From positions 1 to 46,428 of IMG/VR virus record IMGVR_UViG_3300024265_000091: a DNA stretch of 46,428 nucleotides. The stretch is one strand, 5' to 3'. Positions 1-45,087 of this stretch are shown one piece after another (position 1 is the first letter of the stretch; the number at the start of each line of letters is the position of its first letter). The position numbers and the translations under genes are program-made. The DNA comes from a virus. The notes below the pieces were generated by a model. The model saw only the letters and a program-made list of their open reading frames with translations, searched no databases and was not told the DNA's origin.

Positions 1-38
1 CTGTAAAGATGCACTCTCAGCCGAATGCATCTTTACAG
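1..38. repeat. Perfect 13-bp inverted repeat at the window edge
   Basis: Bases 1-13 (CTGTAAAGATGCA) are the exact reverse complement of bases 26-38, with a 12-base loop. The repeat lies inside the TerL reading frame. The frame reads a nuclease-type VDPAKT motif and then SAESA, and its last three residues (SLQ) are encoded entirely by the folded-back copy. This is what a snap-back chimera primed at a TGCA micro-homology would look like, so bases 1 to about 10 should not be trusted. Confidence 0.8.
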
Positions 39-963
39 TTTTCGCAGGGTCCACAATTACTACCGATTCAATATTCTTTTCGTTAACCAGATCTGGCTCT
101 TCATAATACTGGAAATATTCAGGTCTAAACGTAGCATCTTCAGTCGACACCGGTATGTTTCTATACTCTCTATAAAACATATCTAACTGGCCACGATTAG
201 CATGTTCATCTCTAAGCTTCATAACATCTTCGTCACTCATAAAATCAGGCCAGGTCGAGTGATAGTTATCATCACAAATACTTAATTGAACACTATGCCA
301 TGAGGGATCTTCGAGTAAGTTAATCAATAACGAATCCTCGTGTAGAACTGTGCCAATTACTATGATTTTCCAGTTGTCCTTAGCCCGATCAATGGAGTTA
401 CAAACATCCGAAAACCACCAGTCCTTTAACTTCTTCCTTTGATCCTCACTCATTACACTTTCAGAATTCTCTAAGTCATCTGCTATAATCAAGTCAGGTC
501 GATATCTGTTGAACAGATTACCACGCACTTGCTGGCCAGCACCCCTAGGCATGACCATAGTTCCACTTGCAGTAATCCATTGATCTCTGGAGAATGACTC
601 ACTCTTCATTGAGCCGAAAAGTTCCCTAATCACAGGATTGTACATCAACTCCCGTTTTAAGTTCTCACCTTGAGTCACGGCGTTAGTCGCAGTTGCACTA
701 ATCGGTACAATGAATTTCTTTTCTTTAAACAGGATCCGTTTAGCAGGATGGGCAATAGTGCAAAGTGAAGTTTTACCAAAGCCTCGTGGCGCAGCTATTA
801 CCGCCTGCTTAATTGTGTTATCATCTAGGATTCTGAATATCTCATCATGGAGTGTTGAAAATGGTAGATCGAAACGCTCAGGGAATAGTACCTTGGCAGA
901 AACCTTAGTACTCCCGTAACAACGTCCCATTATTTCTTCTATACCTTCTTGCGTCTTAAGCAT
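1..963 (-). CDS. terL: Terminase large subunit (TerL), C-terminus missing
   Basis: This is the DNA-packaging motor ATPase/nuclease that docks on the portal and cuts concatemeric DNA. I read the frame from the ATG at 963 (start MLKTQEGIEE) for 321 codons to the window edge without a stop. Residues about 58-66 form a Walker A loop (APRGFGKTS). Residues about 157-165 form the Walker B/acid pair (PDLIIADDL). Near residue 305 VDPAKT begins the RNase H-like nuclease domain with its first catalytic Asp. TerL proteins are normally 450-600 residues, so most of the nuclease domain is outside the window. The last residues come from a fold-back repeat and are suspect. It is the last late gene before the left edge. 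An operator-like palindrome lies just upstream, between it and the preceding stop. Confidence 0.93.
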   Translation of the reverse strand, partial: MLKTQEGIEEIMGRCYGSTKVSAKVLFPERFDLPFSTLHDEIFRILDDNTIKQAVIAAPRGFGKTSLCTIAHPAKRILFKEKKFIVPISATATNAVTQGENLKRELMYNPVIRELFGSMKSESFSRDQWITASGTMVMPRGAGQQVRGNLFNRYRPDLIIADDLENSESVMSEDQRKKLKDWWFSDVCNSIDRAKDNWKIIVIGTVLHEDSLLINLLEDPSWHSVQLSICDDNYHSTWPDFMSDEDVMKLRDEHANRGQLDMFYREYRNIPVSTEDATFRPEYFQYYEEPDLVNEKNIESVVIVDPAKTVKMHSAESASLQ

Positions 964-4748: not shown

Positions 4749-5099
4749 CTAATTAGTCATTACAGTATTCATACCTACAGAAACTTCTGTCACAGTAGTA
4801 AAACTTGACTCGGTTTCTATGGCAGTGGCAAACACCGAAAGTGCAGCAGTCAACGCTGCAGGAGTTAGTGCTGCCAGATTAGGACAATTCAATGTTATAG
4901 TAATCTTATGATCATAAGATACATTAGCTCCATCTTCTGCCGTAACTGTAAGTGTAAGCGACCCTGTAATGCTAGTTGCAGCTCCACCTAATGCTACCAT
5001 TCTAGCATTCTCGGCCGTCAAGTGAGCATCAATCAAAACGATCATCGCCGCTATATTTGCTATATGAGTTTCACGATAAGTTCCGCTTATTCTAGCCAT
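4749..5099 (-). CDS. Small Ala/Thr-rich virion-region protein
   Basis: The 116-residue protein has an N-terminal helix (IANIAAMIVLIDAHL) followed by a beta-rich domain (SITGSLTLTVTAEDGANVSYDH). It starts one base after the adaptor gene's stop and is probably translated with it. I recognise no family. Head-tail joining or tail completion is inferred from position. Confidence 0.7.
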   Translation of the reverse strand: MARISGTYRETHIANIAAMIVLIDAHLTAENARMVALGGAATSITGSLTLTVTAEDGANVSYDHKITITLNCPNLAALTPAALTAALSVFATAIETESSFTTVTEVSVGMNTVMTN

Positions 5100-5100
5100 T

Positions 5101-5829
5101 TTATCCCTCCATTTGTGATACTTCGGCTATATGTTCTTCCACAAAATCTCTCCCAATTCCACCTACTTCCAAGTTAATTGCTGCTAGCCAATCTTTAGCT
5201 CCTTCAGTATTACGATAAGCAATTTCCAACTGGTGCATTGCAGCCATTAAGAGAACTTCTGGGTGCGTTATGCTCCAATAAGATTCATCATCATTGTCGT
5301 CAAGTGATGGAGAATAGAACAATCCCCATACCTCGATCGTATAAGTTCCATCTGCAGGAGGATAAAATATCACTCCGTTATATTCATAGTGAGTCGAAGT
5401 TAACAATATGTCGTCAAATCCACTTATTGCTTCTGATGCTGCAGCTGTCAATGAGTCTGGTATAGGACGTAGCACGGCAGGAGCATAATAAACTGGAGTT
5501 CCAGAAGTAAGCTCTCCAACTGGCGAAGCATAGAATTCTCGAAGATCACTTATGTCTTGTTTGTCCAGTTTCGACCGTGCCTCTGTGTTCATCACCCATG
5601 CTTCCTTAATAGCACGACAGAACTGAAATGTGACATAATACTCTCCAGATGTTACTTCTATAAATCTCCTGCCCCATGACTTAGGAACAGTGTCCAAACG
5701 ATCTAGAAAGCGCTGACCTGAATTGATATAAAGATTCGCTCCATTATCAACCCAATCAGTTGTGTCGACTACTAGATCATAACGTCCACTACGCTTGACA
5801 AACTCGGCTCTAACTTCCAGAAGATCCAT
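5101..5829 (-). CDS. Head-to-tail adaptor protein
   Basis: The 242-residue protein begins with LLEVRAEFVKRSGR and contains an NSGQRFLDRLD helix and a conserved C-terminal helix (EVLLMAAMHQLEIAYRNTEGA). This pattern is common to podovirus adaptor rings (T7 gp11 and P22 gp4 types) that bind under the portal. It comes directly after the major capsid gene in transcription order. Its ribosome site AAAGGAA is part of operator-like copy 2, so capsid and tail genes are separated by a hairpin and an operator. Confidence 0.65.
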   Translation of the reverse strand: MDLLEVRAEFVKRSGRYDLVVDTTDWVDNGANLYINSGQRFLDRLDTVPKSWGRRFIEVTSGEYYVTFQFCRAIKEAWVMNTEARSKLDKQDISDLREFYASPVGELTSGTPVYYAPAVLRPIPDSLTAAASEAISGFDDILLTSTHYEYNGVIFYPPADGTYTIEVWGLFYSPSLDDNDDESYWSITHPEVLLMAAMHQLEIAYRNTEGAKDWLAAINLEVGGIGRDFVEEHIAEVSQMEG

Positions 5830-5922: not shown

Positions 5923-7260
5923 CTATAGCGTGTTGTCGATACCTACCCCATTGAGATATCCCCAACCCGCAGGATGATGATACTCAAGTCCACACTCAGT
6001 TAAAAACTCCTCCTTTGTCCCATCAGTTCTTGACCACCCAGTGTTCTGTTTTTCCTTCTCACTGTAAAAAGTGGTATCCGTTATAAAGCGATACTTCAGA
6101 TTCGCGGGCTCGAAAATAACCATCGAGTTACGAGTCGTAGCATCATAGCTAAATAGCGGATGGGTTATAAGATTAATCATTCCGAACGGAGTAACCCACT
6201 CAACTACCTTGATTCCATAAGCTTTAGTTGCCGGGGTAAACGTGAACTGGCCGACATTCTTGACCAGCCTGTTAATTCCCAGAAGTGCTCCACTTCCACA
6301 GAATGCCAGCTTTTCCCTCTGCCCATATCGGAACATAAGTTCAAGCTCTGCATCCAACCAGTCCTCGCCACTTGCCAGCCAGGTATGGCCAGGATAAGTG
6401 GCATTTATGGAAAAGTCATCTACGGTTCCACTTGCTTCGCCAGCTGGTGTTCCAGCTCCCCTAATCGCAGGTACAAGGCCCATAGTGGTCCTCATTGGCT
6501 TACCATTTGCTCCAGTTCCCTTTGTAGCAATACTCCACAGGAAGGCCTTCTCCATTTCGATGGAGTGAATCTCCAAGGCCTCACGCTTTAGTTCCTTATA
6601 AGCATCACCAGTCCGAAGCGTGGTCGCACGTGCAGTTCGAGTGATTTCCAGGGGAGTCCGAAAGATCTGGGTGTAATTCTCCCACTCAAATGGATCATAA
6701 CTAATTGCATCAGGCATACTAGCACCCTCAGAGTTCATGTTACCGACGATTAGAACTGTATTAACAGTACCAAGATTACCATCTACATACACAGTACCAT
6801 TGTCGTCAGCTTCCAGCAGCCTTACCGCCAGATAACTATTTGCACCATTCTTTACCACGGCCGTAACTAATCCATTGACATCTACTGTGTAGTAATCAGA
6901 ATCCCTCAACAGAATCTGATGCCCCACACGAAACTGATCAGAGTTAGCCTCAGTCATCTGAATATAAACAGTAACCCCGACAACTGCCCCAGCAGCGGGA
7001 TAAGTAGTCAAATAAGCAGTAGTAAGTGTTATCTCGGTAAAGATCTCATTAGCGACAATCGTTGCACTTTGCTGCTGCAGTATTTTAGTCCACCAATGAT
7101 AGCGCGGATCATCAACTTTTTCATTTCTTAGTTTACTCAAAATAGCAGTCAGTGGTGCACTGCCATTCGGATAGCGATACAGAATTCCTTGTCTCCAATT
7201 TTCAGGCCTTTGATCAGTTACCCAATCATCAGTGCCTCTCATTCCTAAAAATCCAGGCAT
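5923..7260 (-). CDS. Major capsid protein, SU10-like
   Basis: The 445-residue protein builds the icosahedral shell. The N-arm (ENWRQGILYRYPNGSAPL) is followed by a conserved block YTQIFRTPLEITRTA near residue 200. It has a spine helix region (KELKREALEIHSIEMEKAFLW), and ends with LTECGLEYHHPAGWGYLNGV. These match the HK97-fold SU10 major capsid family (formerly DUF5309) in order and length. A beta-rich insertion (about residues 75-180) probably forms a surface domain. It is flanked by tiny basic genes upstream and a strong hairpin downstream. Confidence 0.85.
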   Translation of the reverse strand: MPGFLGMRGTDDWVTDQRPENWRQGILYRYPNGSAPLTAILSKLRNEKVDDPRYHWWTKILQQQSATIVANEIFTEITLTTAYLTTYPAAGAVVGVTVYIQMTEANSDQFRVGHQILLRDSDYYTVDVNGLVTAVVKNGANSYLAVRLLEADDNGTVYVDGNLGTVNTVLIVGNMNSEGASMPDAISYDPFEWENYTQIFRTPLEITRTARATTLRTGDAYKELKREALEIHSIEMEKAFLWSIATKGTGANGKPMRTTMGLVPAIRGAGTPAGEASGTVDDFSINATYPGHTWLASGEDWLDAELELMFRYGQREKLAFCGSGALLGINRLVKNVGQFTFTPATKAYGIKVVEWVTPFGMINLITHPLFSYDATTRNSMVIFEPANLKYRFITDTTFYSEKEKQNTGWSRTDGTKEEFLTECGLEYHHPAGWGYLNGVGIDNTL

Positions 7261-11504: not shown

Positions 11505-11737
11505 TCATCGTTGTCTAATTCCTCTTCCAAGACATCCCTCAAATTCTCAGCCCAATTAAGGACATCACGTAGAACGTCGATTCTCCCTTGTCTACGATAA
11601 ACTTGCTTTATGTCCTCAGCTTTCTCCAGTTGTTCTTTTGCACCTTCCAACCAATCTTCGAAATCACCTCTCATATCCTCATAAACTGTCGAGTCAATAA
11701 AGAAGTCAACCTCACTTAACGAGCTTTTATATTCCAC
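11492..11737 (-). CDS. Small helical protein between portal and scaffold
   Basis: The 81-residue acidic, mostly helical protein (FEDWLEGAKEQLEKAEDI) overlaps the portal stop by 11 bases, so translation is probably coupled. Small helical proteins of this size often lie between portal and scaffold genes in podoviruses. Function is unknown. Confidence 0.7.
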   Translation of the reverse strand: MEYKSSLSEVDFFIDSTVYEDMRGDFEDWLEGAKEQLEKAEDIKQVYRRQGRIDVLRDVLNWAENLRDVLEEELDNDDYVQ

Positions 11738-13688
11738 CCATAGCCTCCTCTAATGGAACAGCATTTCCTGCCTGAGCCATATCCCGAACTTGCTCATCAG
11801 GCATAATTTGTGGCTTTACACGAACAAACTCGTCTACGTTCTTAGCACCCATATTAGTAGCGACGTACTTGAAGATTCGAGTCAAATCAAAAGTTTGTGA
11901 CAATTCTGGATGACTCGCCAGAACACTAAACATCTGGACCCAGACATCGCTAAAGTTACCACCAGGTACACTACCGTCCCTCACAAGAACATCATAATCT
12001 ACCAGAACATCAAATGGTGTTACCTTCATTCTTTGAGCTTCTGGACCATACTGTGAGGTAATTACTTCCTGCCAGCGCCCTGTAGTGGTTGTGTAAAGTT
12101 CCTGAGTCATTAATTGCTGGATATGACTAGCAAACATATAGCCAAGGTCTTGCATAGCTTGTAACCCAATGACCCTTGCAATACGCCCAAGTCTTGAAGC
12201 TGCACCAGCTTGAGTCCCTTGAAACTCACCTTTTGTCAACCTTTCCGGACCGCCTTGACGAAGTGATCCCATCGCTGGGTCGTCTGCAGCTCCCATTTTC
12301 TGCATAGCTTGAATTATCCACGCACTGTCACTTATGTTTCCTCTCGTTATATCATTTACATTAAGTTGTTTAACAGCATCGCCAATCCCTCTACCCCACG
12401 CCGGACGCCGCATACGAATGAGCTTGCCAGGCTTTGGATCCTTGAGATCATTAATATTAACAAGGTAGGGATCAACAACAAGCATGTCATTAATAGCTTT
12501 ACGCACATTACTGATATGACTATTAAATAGCCAATCCAACGTACCTTGTAGTCCATAGAGTACCTCCACCCGCGAAAGCGGTAATGCACTATAACCATCA
12601 AAGTCTGGTGAACAACTAACAATCGGAAACAAGTCATGATCGAGGCCAAGAGGTTTGGCCTTAATAACTACACAGTCATTGGCTAAGGCAATAAGCCACT
12701 TTTCAGGATACTCTGAGTTACCAATTTTCCAATCCTTCGGGATAACCTTGATATACATATAGACTACGTCAACTGGATTCGTAGTATTATTGTCTGAACC
12801 AGTACGAATGCCACTACTGGACATCCCAGTACGCTCATAACGCCTGGAGTTGTCGCCAGCAAATATCGAACTTTGTTTATTCTTGACCTGACGTAAGTAC
12901 CTGACATTGAAGACATCCTCATCTACTTGTTCATCCCGAAGCAAGTTCATCAAGTTATCCCTTGAGACCCAACCACTATACTCACCCTTCTGGACTTCAT
13001 GTGAAGCTACATTGGGATCAGGAAGATAAAGATAAGGATCAATGTTCTCCATTGAGTTACCTTCATAAAGCAAAGCTTCTTCACTTACCTTATTATAGCC
13101 CTGTTCTACAAATCGCCCAAAAATGTTAGTAAATCCACTTTCTTGCTTAACGGTCTTAAACCCCCGTCTTTCCTCCCATCCAGGAGCTCCCACACCTATT
13201 CCATATGCCAAAGCATCACGAAACATAGTATGTAATGCCAGAGCAATCTTGGACTTATTACAATGAACCTCGACCACTTTCTCCAGCATCACCGCACCAA
13301 TAGTGTCTTCCGGCGAAACACCTTCATAACGAAAGATTGGCTCCGTCAGAAATGCATTCACGAGATATGTAAGCACTGTTTCATGAATTGCATAAGTATA
13401 AGGAAAAATAATAGAAACTGGCTTTCGCTTGTCAGCATACTTAATATCTTCTTCTTCTTCATCCAGAGGAATATAAGTAGTAAGCACTTCGTCGATCTTA
13501 TTCCATGAACTATAACGATTACTGACTGCGGCATTAGCTTCATTTGCCCGCTGAATTACCTCATCTCGTAGCTTGTCATGTAGTTTACTGCCAGGTTTCA
13601 AGTCAAGCCCATCAGGATATTCATAATCATAACTCACATCTGAAAAGTCAATAGCTTGTGCCGTATTACCTTGTATTATTCTAGGCAT
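11727..13688 (-). CDS. Portal protein
   Basis: This 653-residue protein forms the dodecameric ring at the packaging vertex that TerL binds and DNA passes through. Typical portal features are the N-terminal wing (EVIQRANEANAAVSNRYSSW), the motif FPYTYAIHETVLTYLVNAF, and a stem/clip region DWLFNSHISNVRKAINDML. It also has the conserved VVDPYLVNINDL and PKPGKLIRMRRPAWG (residues 402-431) and a channel helix with ERLTKGEFQGTQAGAASRLG. The length fits podovirus portals. Residues about 402-438 have a recognisable copy in the early protein at 43518-43910. Confidence 0.88.
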   Translation of the reverse strand: MPRIIQGNTAQAIDFSDVSYDYEYPDGLDLKPGSKLHDKLRDEVIQRANEANAAVSNRYSSWNKIDEVLTTYIPLDEEEEDIKYADKRKPVSIIFPYTYAIHETVLTYLVNAFLTEPIFRYEGVSPEDTIGAVMLEKVVEVHCNKSKIALALHTMFRDALAYGIGVGAPGWEERRGFKTVKQESGFTNIFGRFVEQGYNKVSEEALLYEGNSMENIDPYLYLPDPNVASHEVQKGEYSGWVSRDNLMNLLRDEQVDEDVFNVRYLRQVKNKQSSIFAGDNSRRYERTGMSSSGIRTGSDNNTTNPVDVVYMYIKVIPKDWKIGNSEYPEKWLIALANDCVVIKAKPLGLDHDLFPIVSCSPDFDGYSALPLSRVEVLYGLQGTLDWLFNSHISNVRKAINDMLVVDPYLVNINDLKDPKPGKLIRMRRPAWGRGIGDAVKQLNVNDITRGNISDSAWIIQAMQKMGAADDPAMGSLRQGGPERLTKGEFQGTQAGAASRLGRIARVIGLQAMQDLGYMFASHIQQLMTQELYTTTTGRWQEVITSQYGPEAQRMKVTPFDVLVDYDVLVRDGSVPGGNFSDVWVQMFSVLASHPELSQTFDLTRIFKYVATNMGAKNVDEFVRVKPQIMPDEQVRDMAQAGNAVPLEEAMGGI

Positions 13689-34168: not shown

Positions 34169-34178
34169 GGAGAATAAA

Positions 34179-34415
34179 ATGAAAAGAAGAACAGCCCTTA
34201 AAACAATGGGAGCATTGGTTGTGTGCCTGGGGGGACATAGGGTCCATGCAGACGAGTCAACCGATGAATTATTCATTTCTGCGTCTCAGTCAAGTCCTGT
34301 AGATTGTTTTTTTAGCGCTGATGAAATCAAAAATCTTATCATCGAGCGAAAGGGAAAACCAGACCTTGTAATTCCCTTTAGCGAGATAGTATCTGCATTG
34401 GAGGAAGGGAGGTGA
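34179..34415 (+). CDS. Small exported protein with Tat-like signal
   Basis: I chose the ATG at 34179 (GGGAGAATAAA before it). The 78-residue protein starts MKRRTALKTMGALVVCLGG, a twin-Arg followed by a hydrophobic run, with a likely cleavage after HA (residue 24). The mature part is small and acidic with one Cys. A Tat-type signal is unusual in a phage protein. A plain Sec signal is the alternative. Confidence 0.6.
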   Translation: MKRRTALKTMGALVVCLGGHRVHADESTDELFISASQSSPVDCFFSADEIKNLIIERKGKPDLVIPFSEIVSALEEGR

Positions 34416-38365: not shown

Positions 38366-38574
38366 GAAATTATAAATGTGATAATTGTAAGGATAATACT
38401 GACAAAGACTTAGGGCTAATAGGTGGGGCAGCCAGTCGCGAAGTATCTACTGGAATGATTGTGGGTTATTCTACACCTATTACCTTGGAGATATGCTTAG
38501 AAGTTTTTGGCACCCCTGCTAATGTAGATCTCTGCCCGAAATGTTTGAAGACTATTCTGGAGGAATTGATATGA
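38362..38574 (+). CDS. Zinc-ribbon microprotein
   Basis: The 70-residue protein has CDNC near the N-terminus and CPKC near the C-terminus, with Gly-rich middle (GLIGGAASREVSTGM). This resembles small zinc-binding proteins of other phages. It also ends in LEELI and overlaps the next ATG. Confidence 0.65.
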   Translation: MRNYKCDNCKDNTDKDLGLIGGAASREVSTGMIVGYSTPITLEICLEVFGTPANVDLCPKCLKTILEELI

Positions 38575-39923
38575 AACTAACCACAATACCTATTACTTCC
38601 ATCTTGATAGGTAAACGCTTTCGTGAGGAACTTGGTGATATCAAAGGACTTGCAGAATCCATGAAAAGCAAAGGAATTATTACTCCAATCGCGGTGTCCT
38701 CAGGGCCGGAAAATGTCTACCATCTCCTCGCTGGCGGACGAAGAATCGTCGCAGCTGAATTGGCAGGTATCACAGAGATTCCAGTTCGAATCTATGAGCG
38801 AGAACTAACCGAGCTAGAACTTCGTTCAATCGAACTTGAAGAAAACATCCAACGAAAAGATCTTGAGTGGTGGGAAAAAGTAAATCTCCAGAAAGAAATA
38901 AACGATCTTCAGCAACAGATTCATGGCCAGAAGTTTTCTACGGCAGAAGATGCTACAGGTTGGAGTATGAGAGACACTGCAAGTCTGATGGGCAAAAGTA
39001 TTGGTGGCATCTCGATGGATATTAAGCTTGCAGAAACTATGAAGGAGATGCCAGAATTGGAGTGGGACAAATGCAAGAACAAAAGTGATGCTGTCAAGTT
39101 GATGAGCAAGGTCGAGGAGGCCTTCATTCGCCAGGAACTTTCGAAGCGTGCGGAAGATGTCATTTCCACTGGTGGGCAAAACGCTGCAAGAAAGCGGTTA
39201 ATGGATTCCTACATTGTCCGTGATTATCTGGAGGCTGTGAAAGATCTCGAGGCTGGAATGTTCAATCTTGTAGAAATTGATCCTCCCTACTCGATTGATC
39301 TTGGTAAAATGAAGAAAGAGGATGGAATCTCGAAGTATGACTATGGTAAGGAAGGTTATAATGAAATTAGGGAATCTGACTATATAAACTTCATTCACGA
39401 AGTGTTATGCGAAACATATCACGTTATGGCAGAAAACTCATGGCTCTTACTTTGGTTTGCTCCTGAACCTTGGTTCACAGTTATGTTTGAATTACTAATC
39501 GATGTAGGCTTCAATCTAAATCGTATGCCAGCTATCTGGGTCAAAGGTGAAGAGGATGATAAATTAGTAGTTGACCACATAACTGGTCAGACTATGCATC
39601 CCCAGACTCACCTTGCCAACTCGTATGAAATGTTCTTCTGGGCTCGTAAAGGAAACCCACCGTTAGCTAAGCCTGGATCAACTAATTCATTCCCCTACCG
39701 TCCAGTCCCGCCACAAAAGAAAATCCACCCTACTGAGCGTCCACTTGATTTGATGCTCGACATTTTATCGACTTTTGCGTTTGAGAATTCCACAGTCCTT
39801 GTGCCATTCGCTGGAAGTGGCAATACTCTCGTTGCTGCTCACCAGTTGAAAATGCATCCAGTCGGATTCGATCTGAGTCAACAATTCAAAGATGCATTTA
39901 ACATTAGGTGTATGTCTATGTAA
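38571..39923 (+). CDS. ParB-like domain fused to DNA methyltransferase
   Basis: The 450-residue protein starts at the ATGA at 38571. Residues 1-100 are ParB-like: ILIGKRFREELGDIKGLAES, then LLAGGRRIVAAELAG (52-66), then ELEENIQRKDL (88-98). Residues 230-425 are an N6A/N4C methyltransferase with catalytic DPPY (237-240) placed before the SAM motif FAGSG (413-417), the beta-class order. Such fusions occur in many phages and plasmids and are thought to protect DNA from host restriction, or to guide methylation by the ParB domain. An HTH-like part (SMRDTASLMGKSIGGISMDI) lies between the two. Confidence 0.85.
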   Translation: MKLTTIPITSILIGKRFREELGDIKGLAESMKSKGIITPIAVSSGPENVYHLLAGGRRIVAAELAGITEIPVRIYERELTELELRSIELEENIQRKDLEWWEKVNLQKEINDLQQQIHGQKFSTAEDATGWSMRDTASLMGKSIGGISMDIKLAETMKEMPELEWDKCKNKSDAVKLMSKVEEAFIRQELSKRAEDVISTGGQNAARKRLMDSYIVRDYLEAVKDLEAGMFNLVEIDPPYSIDLGKMKKEDGISKYDYGKEGYNEIRESDYINFIHEVLCETYHVMAENSWLLLWFAPEPWFTVMFELLIDVGFNLNRMPAIWVKGEEDDKLVVDHITGQTMHPQTHLANSYEMFFWARKGNPPLAKPGSTNSFPYRPVPPQKKIHPTERPLDLMLDILSTFAFENSTVLVPFAGSGNTLVAAHQLKMHPVGFDLSQQFKDAFNIRCMSM

Positions 39924-40899: not shown

Positions 40900-41069
40900 C
40901 TAAATTATTCGGTTATATTGCAGTATGTGTAATTACAGTATTTATGCTATATGGATGCTATTGGGTGATCAAGACAGTAAGTTATAAAGTCTTCTATAGT
41001 GAAATGGTAAGATCAACCATTACCGAGATGGTAAAACCTGAATCATTAAGGGAGAAATTAGATGACTGA
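40896..41069 (+). CDS. Small single-span membrane protein
   Basis: The ATG at 40896 overlaps the previous stop (AATGA). The 57-residue protein has one hydrophobic helix (GYIAVCVITVFMLYGCYW) and a charged tail. Unknown role. Confidence 0.6.
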   Translation: MTKLFGYIAVCVITVFMLYGCYWVIKTVSYKVFYSEMVRSTITEMVKPESLREKLDD

Positions 41070-43515
41070 AAAACCCCATTCTTATGTCCCACCTTCTGGT
41101 CCCAAAGACGCTCTAATTGCTCTCGTTGGTGAACAGCCTGGCAGGCAAGAGGTATTAAGTCGCAAGCCTTTTGTTGGTCCTTCTGGGCACGTTCTAATCG
41201 AATGTCTCAACGCTGTCGGAATTGCCAGAACTGAATGTTATTTCACTAATGTCATTAAGGACCTTGACAAGCATATCAGCAGTTATATAAACCTGGCAAG
41301 TAAAGGTCAATCCATTCTACCCTTCGGCCAGCACTATATTGACGAGCTGAAGACTGAATTGGAAGGTGTAAAATCTAATGTAATCGTAGCTGTCGGAAAC
41401 ATCGCTCTATTCGCTCTTACTTCACGGACTGGCATAACCAAGTGGCGAGGTTCTGTCCTTGAATCCACACTTCTGCCAGGTCGCAAGATTATTCCAGTTA
41501 TTCACCCTGCAACTGTGCTCCCGCCAAAGAATGTCTACCTAAACAAATACCTAATAGTTCATGATCTTAATCGTGCAAAGCAACATTCATCATATCCTGA
41601 AAGTGGTCTAATTGATCGTGACTATATAACTGGTCCATCATTCTATGATATTCTGAGCTTCCTTCATTCATGTAAAGAATGGGGACTAAAGAATATAACG
41701 ATTGACTTCGACATTGAACTTTATAATGAACAAATCTCTTGCATTTCATTTACTTACAGTCCTTCCTTCGCCATGTCTATTCCTTTCGTTCACTCAAAGG
41801 GTGACTACTTAACCGTCGATCAGGAGGCCGAAGTCTGGCTGGAAATTGCCAGTATATTGGAGAATCCTAAAATCAAGAAGCGCGGCCAGAACATCTTATT
41901 CGATACTCATTTATTACTGCGCTATTATGGAATCAAAACAGTTAACCTTGATGATACTATGATTGCCCAGCAGATTATATCGCCAGATTATCCCAAAGGT
42001 CTTGATTTTATCACCTCAATTTACACTGATCTTCCATACTACAAAGCCGAAGGTAAAAAGTGGTTCAAGGTTGGTGGTGCATGGGAAACTTTATGGCAGT
42101 ACAACGCCCGCGATTCTATTGCCTGCGCTATTGCCTTTCCAAAGCAACTCGAGGAGCTAACTGCTCAAGGCAATCTCAAAACCTATGAACGCCAGAAAGG
42201 ACTAATTGAGCCTCTTGCTTATATGCAGGAGAGAGGAATAAAGTGCGATATTGTGGGAATGAAAAACGGGTACGCCCATGCTGACGAAAAACTTAAAGAA
42301 TTACAGGAGGAACTAAATCATGTGGCTGGTAAAGTACTTAATCCAAACTCACCGAAACAACTCAAGGAATATTTTTACCTTGACAAAGGTATTAAACCTT
42401 ATCGAAAGAGTGGTAAGCCTACGACGAACGACGACGCACTTAAGCGACTTGCTCGAAGAGGCTTTCGAGAGGCTTCAATCATCCAGAAGATGCGGCGGAC
42501 AAATAAAGAACGATCAAACTATCTTGACCCTTCTCACGTCGATCCAGACGGACGTATTAGATGTTCATACAACCCTGTCGGTACTCACTACTCACGCATC
42601 TCGTCTTCGAAGAATATCTTTGGAACTGGAACCAATCTCCAGAACTGGCCACACTCCATGCTCAAGTACCTTATCGCCGATGATGGGTATCTCTACTATT
42701 CCTTCGACCTTAGCCAATTCGAGAATCGAATCGTTGCCTACGTAGGTCCAGTCCCACAAATGATAGAAGCATTCGAGTCTGGTACTGATGTCCACTCACT
42801 AACTGCCAGTTTAATTTTCGAGAAACCCATAACCGATGTTTCCCGTGAAGATGGTTCCTCAACTTTAGGTGATGGTATGCACTCAGAACGCTTCTGGGGT
42901 AAGGGAGCAAATCATAAACTTAACTATGATATAGGCTATAAATCATTTGCACTTGAATATGAACTTCCTGAGCCACAGTCCAAGTATATAATCGAGAAAT
43001 ATCACAATGCATATCCAGGTGTTCGTCAAGGCTTTCATAACATGGTTAGAAAGCAGCTGGCCAAGAATAGAATTCTTACCAACTTGATGGGCAGGCGAAC
43101 GAAGTTCATGGGACGCTGGGAAGATAAGCTATTCAAGGAAGCTTATTCCTGTATCCCTCAAGGAACTTGTGGAGATATTATCAATGAGAGAGGAGTTAAT
43201 TATATCTATTATAATCAAGACCTGTTCGGTCCTATTGAACTTCTAACTCAGGTTCATGACAGTGTGGGATTCCAGATTCCATTAACAACTACTTGGTACT
43301 CTGTCGCCATGATGCTTAACTCAATCAAGGCTATGCTGGAAACTCCTCTTGAGTGGCATGGTCGTGAGTTCGTCGTCCCTGTGGATCTATCTGTTGGTCT
43401 AAACATGGGAGAGGTCAACGAGCTTAGTCATAAGTATTGGCCTTCAAACGACCGAATGCTTGCTGAGTGGTTGGAACAAAACTATGATCAATTATTGAAC
43501 AAAGGGAGGGAGTAA
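41062..43515 (+). CDS. UDG - 3'-5' exonuclease - family A DNA polymerase fusion
   Basis: This 817-residue protein is the replicative polymerase. Residues 1-175 are a uracil-DNA-glycosylase domain with GEQPGRQE (23-30), FVGPSGH and the IHPAT motif near 148. Residues 210-360 are a DEDDy exonuclease with FDIE (Asp217, Glu219) and YNARD (347-351), so proofreading should be active. Residues 370-817 are PolA: motif A SFDLSQFENR (Asp549), motif B RFWGKGANHKLNYDIGYK (610-627), motif C VHDS (731-734). UDG-PolA fusions are known in large phages such as SPO1. A copy of the dispersed palindrome lies at its 3' end. Confidence 0.92.
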   Translation: MTEKPHSYVPPSGPKDALIALVGEQPGRQEVLSRKPFVGPSGHVLIECLNAVGIARTECYFTNVIKDLDKHISSYINLASKGQSILPFGQHYIDELKTELEGVKSNVIVAVGNIALFALTSRTGITKWRGSVLESTLLPGRKIIPVIHPATVLPPKNVYLNKYLIVHDLNRAKQHSSYPESGLIDRDYITGPSFYDILSFLHSCKEWGLKNITIDFDIELYNEQISCISFTYSPSFAMSIPFVHSKGDYLTVDQEAEVWLEIASILENPKIKKRGQNILFDTHLLLRYYGIKTVNLDDTMIAQQIISPDYPKGLDFITSIYTDLPYYKAEGKKWFKVGGAWETLWQYNARDSIACAIAFPKQLEELTAQGNLKTYERQKGLIEPLAYMQERGIKCDIVGMKNGYAHADEKLKELQEELNHVAGKVLNPNSPKQLKEYFYLDKGIKPYRKSGKPTTNDDALKRLARRGFREASIIQKMRRTNKERSNYLDPSHVDPDGRIRCSYNPVGTHYSRISSSKNIFGTGTNLQNWPHSMLKYLIADDGYLYYSFDLSQFENRIVAYVGPVPQMIEAFESGTDVHSLTASLIFEKPITDVSREDGSSTLGDGMHSERFWGKGANHKLNYDIGYKSFALEYELPEPQSKYIIEKYHNAYPGVRQGFHNMVRKQLAKNRILTNLMGRRTKFMGRWEDKLFKEAYSCIPQGTCGDIINERGVNYIYYNQDLFGPIELLTQVHDSVGFQIPLTTTWYSVAMMLNSIKAMLETPLEWHGREFVVPVDLSVGLNMGEVNELSHKYWPSNDRMLAEWLEQNYDQLLNKGRE
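43482..43504 (+). promoter_or_regulatory. Dispersed palindromic operator-like site, copy 15, inside polymerase
   Basis: CTATGATCAA-N3-TTGAACAAAG is an exact consensus copy at the end of the polymerase reading frame. There it encodes YDQLLNKG as in the ligase. GGGAGGGAG of the next gene follows. Oriented with transcription. Confidence 0.8.
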
Positions 43516-43517
43516 CA

Positions 43518-43910
43518 ATGACAACAAGATCAATCAATGAGTGCTTTGACTTTGAGGAACTAGAAGAAAAAACATATACTAGGTATATAGCAATAGATCT
43601 TAGCAAAACATCTATTCTAGTAGTTGATCCATATATGATAAATATAAGAGACCTAATTGATGCAAAGTTTGACCTTGATCATGAAAGAACGCTACTTGTC
43701 AGAGCCAGAAGATCGGCTTGGGGAGTTGGTGATTTACATAGATATATCTTTGCAATAAAAAGGGAGGGCTCATGTAATGTATCCAAACCACTACCTTTTA
43801 TACCTTACAAACATGAGTGTGGTTGGGTTTCTAGTCCGGGACAGTGGATAAAATGTAGTTCACTTAACAAACCGTTATGCCCCAAATGTGGAAAGACGTT
43901 TGATGGCTAG
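43518..43910 (+). CDS. Early protein with portal-derived segment and zinc ribbon
   Basis: In this 130-residue protein residues 33-72 (ILVVDPYMINIRDLIDAK, then LLVRARRSAWGVGD) align with the portal's residues 403-436 (MLVVDPYLVNINDLKD, then KLIRMRRPAWGRGIGD). About two thirds are identical apart from a six-residue insertion. The DNA sequences differ, so the split is old. The C-terminal part has Cys101, Cys113 and CPKC (121-124), a zinc ribbon. It lies between polymerase and the DUF3987 ATPase, not with structural genes. It could be a portal decoy or packaging regulator, or a domain shared by descent. Confidence 0.72.
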   Translation: MTTRSINECFDFEELEEKTYTRYIAIDLSKTSILVVDPYMINIRDLIDAKFDLDHERTLLVRARRSAWGVGDLHRYIFAIKREGSCNVSKPLPFIPYKHECGWVSSPGQWIKCSSLNKPLCPKCGKTFDG

Positions 43911-45087
43911 AATCCTCCCCGACTGGATCGACTCCTACTTGGAATACACCGACAATTCCGAACCTCCCTACACTTACCGCTTATGGACAGCTATAAGTTG
44001 TATTGCCGCCTGTCTTCAACGTAAATGCAGACTCCCGTGGGGACATCTGACCTTTTATCCTAACTTCTACATCGTCCTGGTAGGCCCCACTGGTAAGGCT
44101 CGCAAAGGTACTGCTATGGGACCTGGCCAGAAACTACTCCGTAATCTAGGCATTCACATGACTGCTGAGGCTATCACTCGTGAAGCCCTAATCCGCGAAC
44201 TAGCTGGCGCTAAGGGCTCCACTATTGATCCTTCAACTGGTGCTACTAAAATATATTGTTCTCTGACAATTTTCTCTAAGGAACTTACAGTATTCCTCGG
44301 CTACCAAAATCAGCAACTAATGTCTGACCTAACCGACTGGTACGACTGTGATGACTATTGGACCTATCGCACAAAAACTCAGGGAACTGACAGGATTGAA
44401 GGTGTCTGGGTTAATATGTTCGGTGCTACAACTCCTTCTCTCATTGCTACTGCGATGCCTATGGATGCAATCGGTGGCGGCCTGACCTCACGAATCATCT
44501 TCATTTATGAACCTAAGAAAGGTAAAGTCGTGGCAGTGCCTATAAAAACATCTCGTGAGCGTGAACTGGAAAAACAACTAGAACGTGATCTAGAACAAAT
44601 CTTCATGCTTCAAGGCGAGTTCGTTGCCAGTGCAGATCTCCTAGATGTATGGGTACCTTGGTATACTGCAGCTGACGATAACCATCCTTTTGAAGACGAC
44701 CGCTTTGCGGGTTACTTTGAACGTCGAGGTAATCATGCACTTAAATTATCTATGATAATCAATGCTTCACGAACAGATGATATGATAGTTACTAAGGAAG
44801 ATCTTACAAAGGCGTTGGACATTCTTGCTTTGACAGAGAAGAAAATGCCTGCTACTTTCAGCGGTGTTGGCAAGTCACAACAGGCAGATACATTGTCGAA
44901 GGTCTGGAATGAAATCGCGGCCAATGATCAGATGACCATGACCCAGTTGATGCGTCGCTTCCATCGTGACGCTGGTAAGATAGAAATGGAAGCAATTATT
45001 GGAACCTTGATCTCAATGGGAAGTGTAAGACAGACCCGTAAGGATGGAGATTGGTTATTGACTTACATCGACAAGGACAAGGACTAA
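43903..45087 (+). CDS. DUF3987-type ATPase, probable replicative helicase/primase-associated
   Basis: I chose the ATG at 43903 (GGAAAGACGTTTG upstream, overlapping the previous stop). The 394-residue protein has Walker A GPTGKARKGT near 61-70. It also has the family-typical SLTIFSKELTVFLGYQNQQ, a helical part with RIEGVWVNMFGATTPS and GGGLTSRIIFIYEP, and a winged-helix-like C-terminus (DQMTMTQLMRRFHRD). This matches the DUF3987/YfjI group of phage and plasmid helicase-like ATPases. It is the last early gene; its stop is 8 bases from the convergent stop of the right-edge gene. Confidence 0.75.
   Translation: MARILPDWIDSYLEYTDNSEPPYTYRLWTAISCIAACLQRKCRLPWGHLTFYPNFYIVLVGPTGKARKGTAMGPGQKLLRNLGIHMTAEAITREALIRELAGAKGSTIDPSTGATKIYCSLTIFSKELTVFLGYQNQQLMSDLTDWYDCDDYWTYRTKTQGTDRIEGVWVNMFGATTPSLIATAMPMDAIGGGLTSRIIFIYEPKKGKVVAVPIKTSRERELEKQLERDLEQIFMLQGEFVASADLLDVWVPWYTAADDNHPFEDDRFAGYFERRGNHALKLSMIINASRTDDMIVTKEDLTKALDILALTEKKMPATFSGVGKSQQADTLSKVWNEIAANDQMTMTQLMRRFHRDAGKIEMEAIIGTLISMGSVRQTRKDGDWLLTYIDKDKD

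Follow-up and report, generated by a model that had tools for sequence, protein, structure and literature searches.

Organization of the locus

The window analysed here, 46,428 nucleotides from an uncultured virus (IMG/VR record IMGVR_UViG_3300024265_000091), is a tailed-phage contig in which the virion genes lie on the minus strand and the plus-strand genes have mostly replication and recombination functions (Table 1). A small ORF of the plus strand, preceded by a good ribosome site (gggaggg) directly 3' of polA, was the subject of this analysis. The initial annotation had read it as an early protein, expressed with replication genes, in which a block of the phage's own portal is joined to a zinc ribbon. 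The ORF and its portal block are present and lie between polA and the primase gene; early expression is suggested by this gene order. The four cysteines of the ribbon (C101/C113/C121/C124) are also present, but Pfam Zn_ribbon_3 scored 13.8 bits against a cut-off of 27, and the cysteine tail was absent from all standalone relatives described below. Neither Pfam nor PHROG gave a portal match with the whole ORF, the PHROG search being empty.

Two further features of the window were recorded. An inverted repeat (CTGTAAAGATGCA...TGCATCTTTACAG) occupies positions 1-38 at the contig start, within the truncated terminase gene, and is possibly an end artefact of assembly. At 38541-39923 an N6/N4 DNA methylase is fused to a ParB N-terminal domain, an arrangement syntenic in relatives.

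Table 1. Positions of the small ORF and its parts, neighbouring and virion genes of the window, and two standalone relatives.
Feature	Contig	Position	Strand	Remarks
Candidate clip-mimic ORF, 130 aa	Window	43518-43910	+	ATG at 43518, stop at 43910; between polA and DUF3987 primase
N-terminal segment, residues 1-32	Window	43518-43613	+	ECFDIExLEExxYTRYI kept in type 1 relatives
Probable portal-clip block, residues 33-71	Window	43614-43730	+	VVDPYMINIRDL...VRARRSAWGVG
Possible zinc-ribbon tail	Window	43809-43898	+	C101-x11-C-x7-C-x2-C124; private to window phage
UDG-PolA DNA polymerase	Window	41062-43515	+	Upstream neighbour
DUF3987 primase/helicase	Window	43888-45087	+	Downstream neighbour
Portal protein, 653 aa	Window	11727-13688	-	Pfam SU10_portal 7e-15; phrog_332 1.2e-17; solved relative 8zkk portal
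Matching block of portal, residues 402-434	Window	12387-12485	-	Maps to T7 gp8 clip through phrog_332
SU10-type major capsid protein	Window	5923-7260	-	
Large terminase, N-terminal ~320 aa	Window	10-942	-	Cut by contig end; tblastn with L003 TerL, E 3e-86; candidate partner
Predicted standalone clip protein, 78 aa	L045	9534-9770		Tat-like N-terminus DRRNFFK
Predicted standalone clip protein, 80 aa	L087	9538-9780		Tat-like N-terminus DRRSFLK

Homology of the block to the portal

When the whole six-frame window was searched with tblastn, the block matched the portal gene at E = 1.8e-7, the next best match having an E-value of 0.6, and a shuffling test gave p ~3e-8. ORF residues 33-71 align with portal residues 402-434, and 17 of the 33 aligned residues are identical. 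The homology claimed initially was thus upheld, but not its extent (residues 33-72 against portal 402-438) or its continuity, the turn being six residues longer in the ORF. Per-record E-values for matches to the window portal were 2.6e-11 for L147, a standalone relative that lacks these residues, 8.6e-14 for L057 and 1.6e-7 for L001. For the 76-residue type represented by L001 and L002, the sole significant match in 50,697 phage records was the portal of Desulfofustis phage LS06-2018-MD01 (E = 2e-4).

Two sources of doubt had been named at the outset: an insignificant alignment, which the values above dispel, and a general motif found outside portals. The latter can be rejected, as the core motif VDPYx[IV]N[IM]xDL is portal-specific: ~257 Gb of bacterial and archaeal genomes yielded two occurrences, one within a portal and the other within an ORF that we read as a P-type ATPase. 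Weak matches to terminase Walker-B segments were taken as chance.

At the DNA level, the block and the portal are 54% identical and share 8 of 33 third positions, which argues for an old homology rather than a recent duplication. Moreover, the resemblance of the block to the phage's own portal ranked 14 and 11 among ~120 portals, no better than its resemblance to portals of other phages. We therefore reject a recent origin from the portal by duplication or gene conversion.

Position of the block within the portal

Both T7 gp8 and the window portal belong to phrog_332 (E 1.5e-31 and 1.2e-17). In the coordinates of this profile, T7 residues 307-313, which form the adaptor-docking belt of the clip (PMC6702177), correspond to approximately residues 412-420 of the window portal, within the block. 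The two portals also have in common an E-R-x-T-x-x-E motif, which in T7 marks the junction of the tunnel loop and helix alpha10. This mapping, together with the shared motif, places the block between two stem helices, i.e. in the clip, an assignment derived from the coordinates of the profile and from published residue numbers rather than from a superposition. HHalign comparison of the portal family with the T7 and SU10 portals as single sequences was not significant. An earlier placement in the tunnel loop, taken from a loop missing in the 8zkm chain, was dropped after mapping to T7, and equating RxRR with T7 R309/R310 was unsupported, T7 307-313 mapping slightly upstream.

AF2 modelling of the ORF from 54 rows predicted a strand (31-36), a helix (43-47) and a strand (57-62), with a pLDDT of ~70 in the block, a mean of 55 and poor values elsewhere; the whole portal, modelled from four sequences, gave a pLDDT of 30. 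The clips of T4 and T7 consist of three strands and one helix, and that of 80alpha of a hairpin and a small helix (PMC4493910, PMC6702177, PMC10541612). With modest confidence, the predicted strand-helix-strand is in keeping with this make-up (PMC4493910, PMC10541612). A fold search of the small ORF model against the PDB returned no meaningful match. Overall, the portal-clip identity of the block appears well supported, and the original guess of a clip or stem origin can be narrowed to the clip region. SU10/T7-type portals (SU10_portal, phrog_332, 8zkk) are proteins of 500-750 residues with a wing-stem-clip-stem-crown order. The 130-residue ORF, in contrast, matches their clip segment alone, has no wing, stem, tunnel loop or crown and, unlike them, is encoded among replication genes.

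Standalone relatives

Relatives were sought with a block HMM over 80 polymerase-bearing loci and with a motif scan of viral contigs. Counting the window, seven viral contigs, all uncultured, carry the block as a free-standing protein, of which there are six distinct versions. The IMG/VR contigs L001 and L002 encode an identical 76-residue protein with 56-59% identity to the N-terminal 80 residues of the ORF, and L147 encodes a form of 79 residues; in L057 the protein is cut by the contig edge, the block being followed by a stop. A motif scan of viral contigs for the ECFDIExLEExxYTRYI region found nothing beyond the known type 1 relatives. The N-termini of L045 and L087 are unrelated to type 1, so at least two unrelated N-termini occur across the standalone forms. 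These two are twin-arginine-like and, if functional, would take the clip out of the cytoplasm; their Pfam TAT_signal matches (E 0.04 and 0.008, respectively) fell below the cut-off.

The standalone forms are encoded in replication and recombination regions only, with polymerase, primase, nuclease, ATPase and methylase genes as neighbours. Three slots are used: just upstream of an AAA ATPase (L001, L002, L147 and L057), between ParB-methylase and PolA (L045 and L087), and between PolA and primase (the window ORF). No second copy of the block was detected in the complete genomes of the Desulfofustis phage, Kuura, Mel-JY34 and VS-ABTNL-3. As the initial annotation had supposed, a system of this type appears to be undescribed: no standalone clip protein was found in searches of an open-access library.

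Other small or early genes were noted. In the window, an ORF at 34173-34415 with a Tat-like N-terminus (MKRRTALK...) lies between nuclease and ATPase genes, in the slot where relatives encode the clip protein; it had no match in Pfam. Judged by eye, L057 carries next to PolA a small ORF (5023-5418) whose CGPGG and QIHDWYY recall a phospholipase A2 motif, and large early-cluster ORFs of L045 (5811-6986) and L057 (1788-2951) resemble sugar-nucleotide epimerases.

Conservation, distribution and origin

Both standalone types gave dN/dS values of ~0.3-0.5 (dS 0.7-1.0, dN 0.29-0.35), a pattern indicating that these proteins are under purifying selection. VDPY, N, DL, R and W are invariant across standalone forms and aligned portals, and the full RxRR accompanies VDPY, N, DL and W in all six standalone forms. 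The loop from DL to RxRR differs in length: it measures 9 residues in most portal ORFs (115 of 122; the other 7 fall outside the pattern) and 11-16 in five of the six standalone forms, L057 retaining 9.

Within the portal, the block was present in 39 of 50 related records, and the short form in two of the 50, a count that is a lower bound, many of these records being fragments. A clear second, short copy accompanied the portal in one of the 39. By this count, the standalone gene is rare and accessory. In a tree, a split supported at 0.87 set the six standalone forms apart, with L057 nearest the portals. A single capture with later divergence is thereby weakly indicated, as the tree has only 43 columns and the two types have unrelated N-termini.

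The portal genes of four relatives (L183 4234-7272, L165 3137-6163, L205 2-2542 and L206 1-1446) contain an intein-like insertion of ~350 residues (CYDDxTEVLT... to ...CGQ|S), located in the stem helix immediately ahead of the clip block.

Possible functions of a free clip

The portal clip is the docking site of the large terminase and later of the adaptor and tail (PMC4493910, PMC10359639, PMC7617512, PMC6702177). It is also met by host defences: the TIR protein SpbK recognizes the portal dodecamer by binding its clip, clustering being the trigger, and EcAvs4 grips portal monomers with the clip as part of the contact (PMC12847820). Nip, a counter-defence against SpbK, is expressed before the portal (PMC11984713).

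We tentatively propose that the ORF encodes a free clip mimic that acts as a competitive decoy, its likeliest target being a host defence sensor that recognizes incoming portals by their clip. The protein would be a free-standing copy of the portal clip with a short N-terminal segment and, in the window only, a cysteine-rich tail. The clip is the part of the portal ring that projects from the capsid and is gripped by partner proteins; the mimic, judging from gene order, would be made before portals appear. With no wing or stem from which to build a ring, it would present a single clip, presumably as a monomer, in place of a ring of twelve, and could fill the pocket of SpbK- or Avs4-like sensors without clustering or full engagement. 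The sequences support the homology of the block, its location in the clip, its free-standing form, the selection acting on it, its setting among early genes and its patchy distribution; monomeric state, timing, binding and partner are inferred. A clip targeted by SpbK and Avs4 suits an early, accessory decoy at least as well as the packaging and superinfection roles suggested initially. Like Nip, the mimic would be an early phage protein directed against a clip-sensing defence, as shown for Nip and proposed here; Nip, however, combines SH3-like and HU-like parts and binds to the TIR domain, whereas the mimic carries the clip block itself (PMC11984713). Several observations count against a decoy. 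The Tat-like N-termini of L045 and L087, if functional, would put the block outside the cytoplasm; a tuned decoy might be expected to match its own portal, which the block resembles no more closely than others; PADLOC defence and anti-defence profiles did not match the ORF; and the AF2 model is of modest confidence and found no relative in the fold search.

It is also possible, and only slightly less likely, that the mimic docks the large terminase or tail adaptor, delaying packaging during replication or blocking the packaging of superinfecting relatives. The clip is indeed where TerL and then the adaptor and tail dock (PMC4493910, PMC10359639, PMC6702177), one genome holds portal, TerL fragment and mimic, and a patchy accessory gene suits rivalry between relatives. 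Tab, a phage accessory protein that hinders virion assembly of other phages, offers a likeness for this reading; it is expressed from a prophage and acts on the tail tape measure, with no portal link mentioned in the abstract of the source (PMC10884400). However, the phage's own TerL and adaptor would also be hit unless relieved, the block not being self-specific, and in most standalone forms the loop that follows the clip helix is longer and not conserved. A core packaging timer should be common, and is disfavoured by the rare and patchy distribution, with a clear short second copy in just one portal-bearing record.

A less likely course is that phages took over the portal block as a small, ready-made fold that now works in a replication or recombination complex, binding DNA or protein, without any connection to portals. 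Its constant company of polymerase, primase, nuclease, ATPase and methylase genes, the basic RxRR strand and the cysteine-rich tail of the window version would suit such a role; against it, many portal-like residues are kept, and few of the close relatives that share these replication genes carry the gene.

Entry of the fragment into portal rings through strand pairing between clips, which would poison or limit portal assembly, is improbable: in T4 adjacent subunits contribute to a common clip sheet (PMC4493910), but wing and stem contacts also hold portals together. A meaningless leftover of recombination, to which small size and scattered positions might point, is most improbable and already largely refuted by the selection seen in both architectures, the ribosome sites and the conserved N-terminus.

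We therefore rank the decoy first, competition for terminase or adaptor a close second and a replication role third, because an accessory protein of an arms race, more than a core packaging timer, would be expected to be patchily distributed, to vary in its N-terminus and to show no preference for its own portal. A lone clip would be predicted to block a clip sensor or terminase without forming a ring. That phages have an early family of standalone clips that pre-occupy clip-recognizing host sensors, an anti-defence class undescribed before, is a more speculative extension that we consider unlikely on present evidence. The portal is both a conserved immune target in bacteria and the docking hub of the packaging motor; if the proposal is true, nature would have supplied in the free clip a reagent for separating the immune-sensor and packaging-motor contacts of the portal, and phages would be shown to turn parts of their own virion proteins into early inhibitors.
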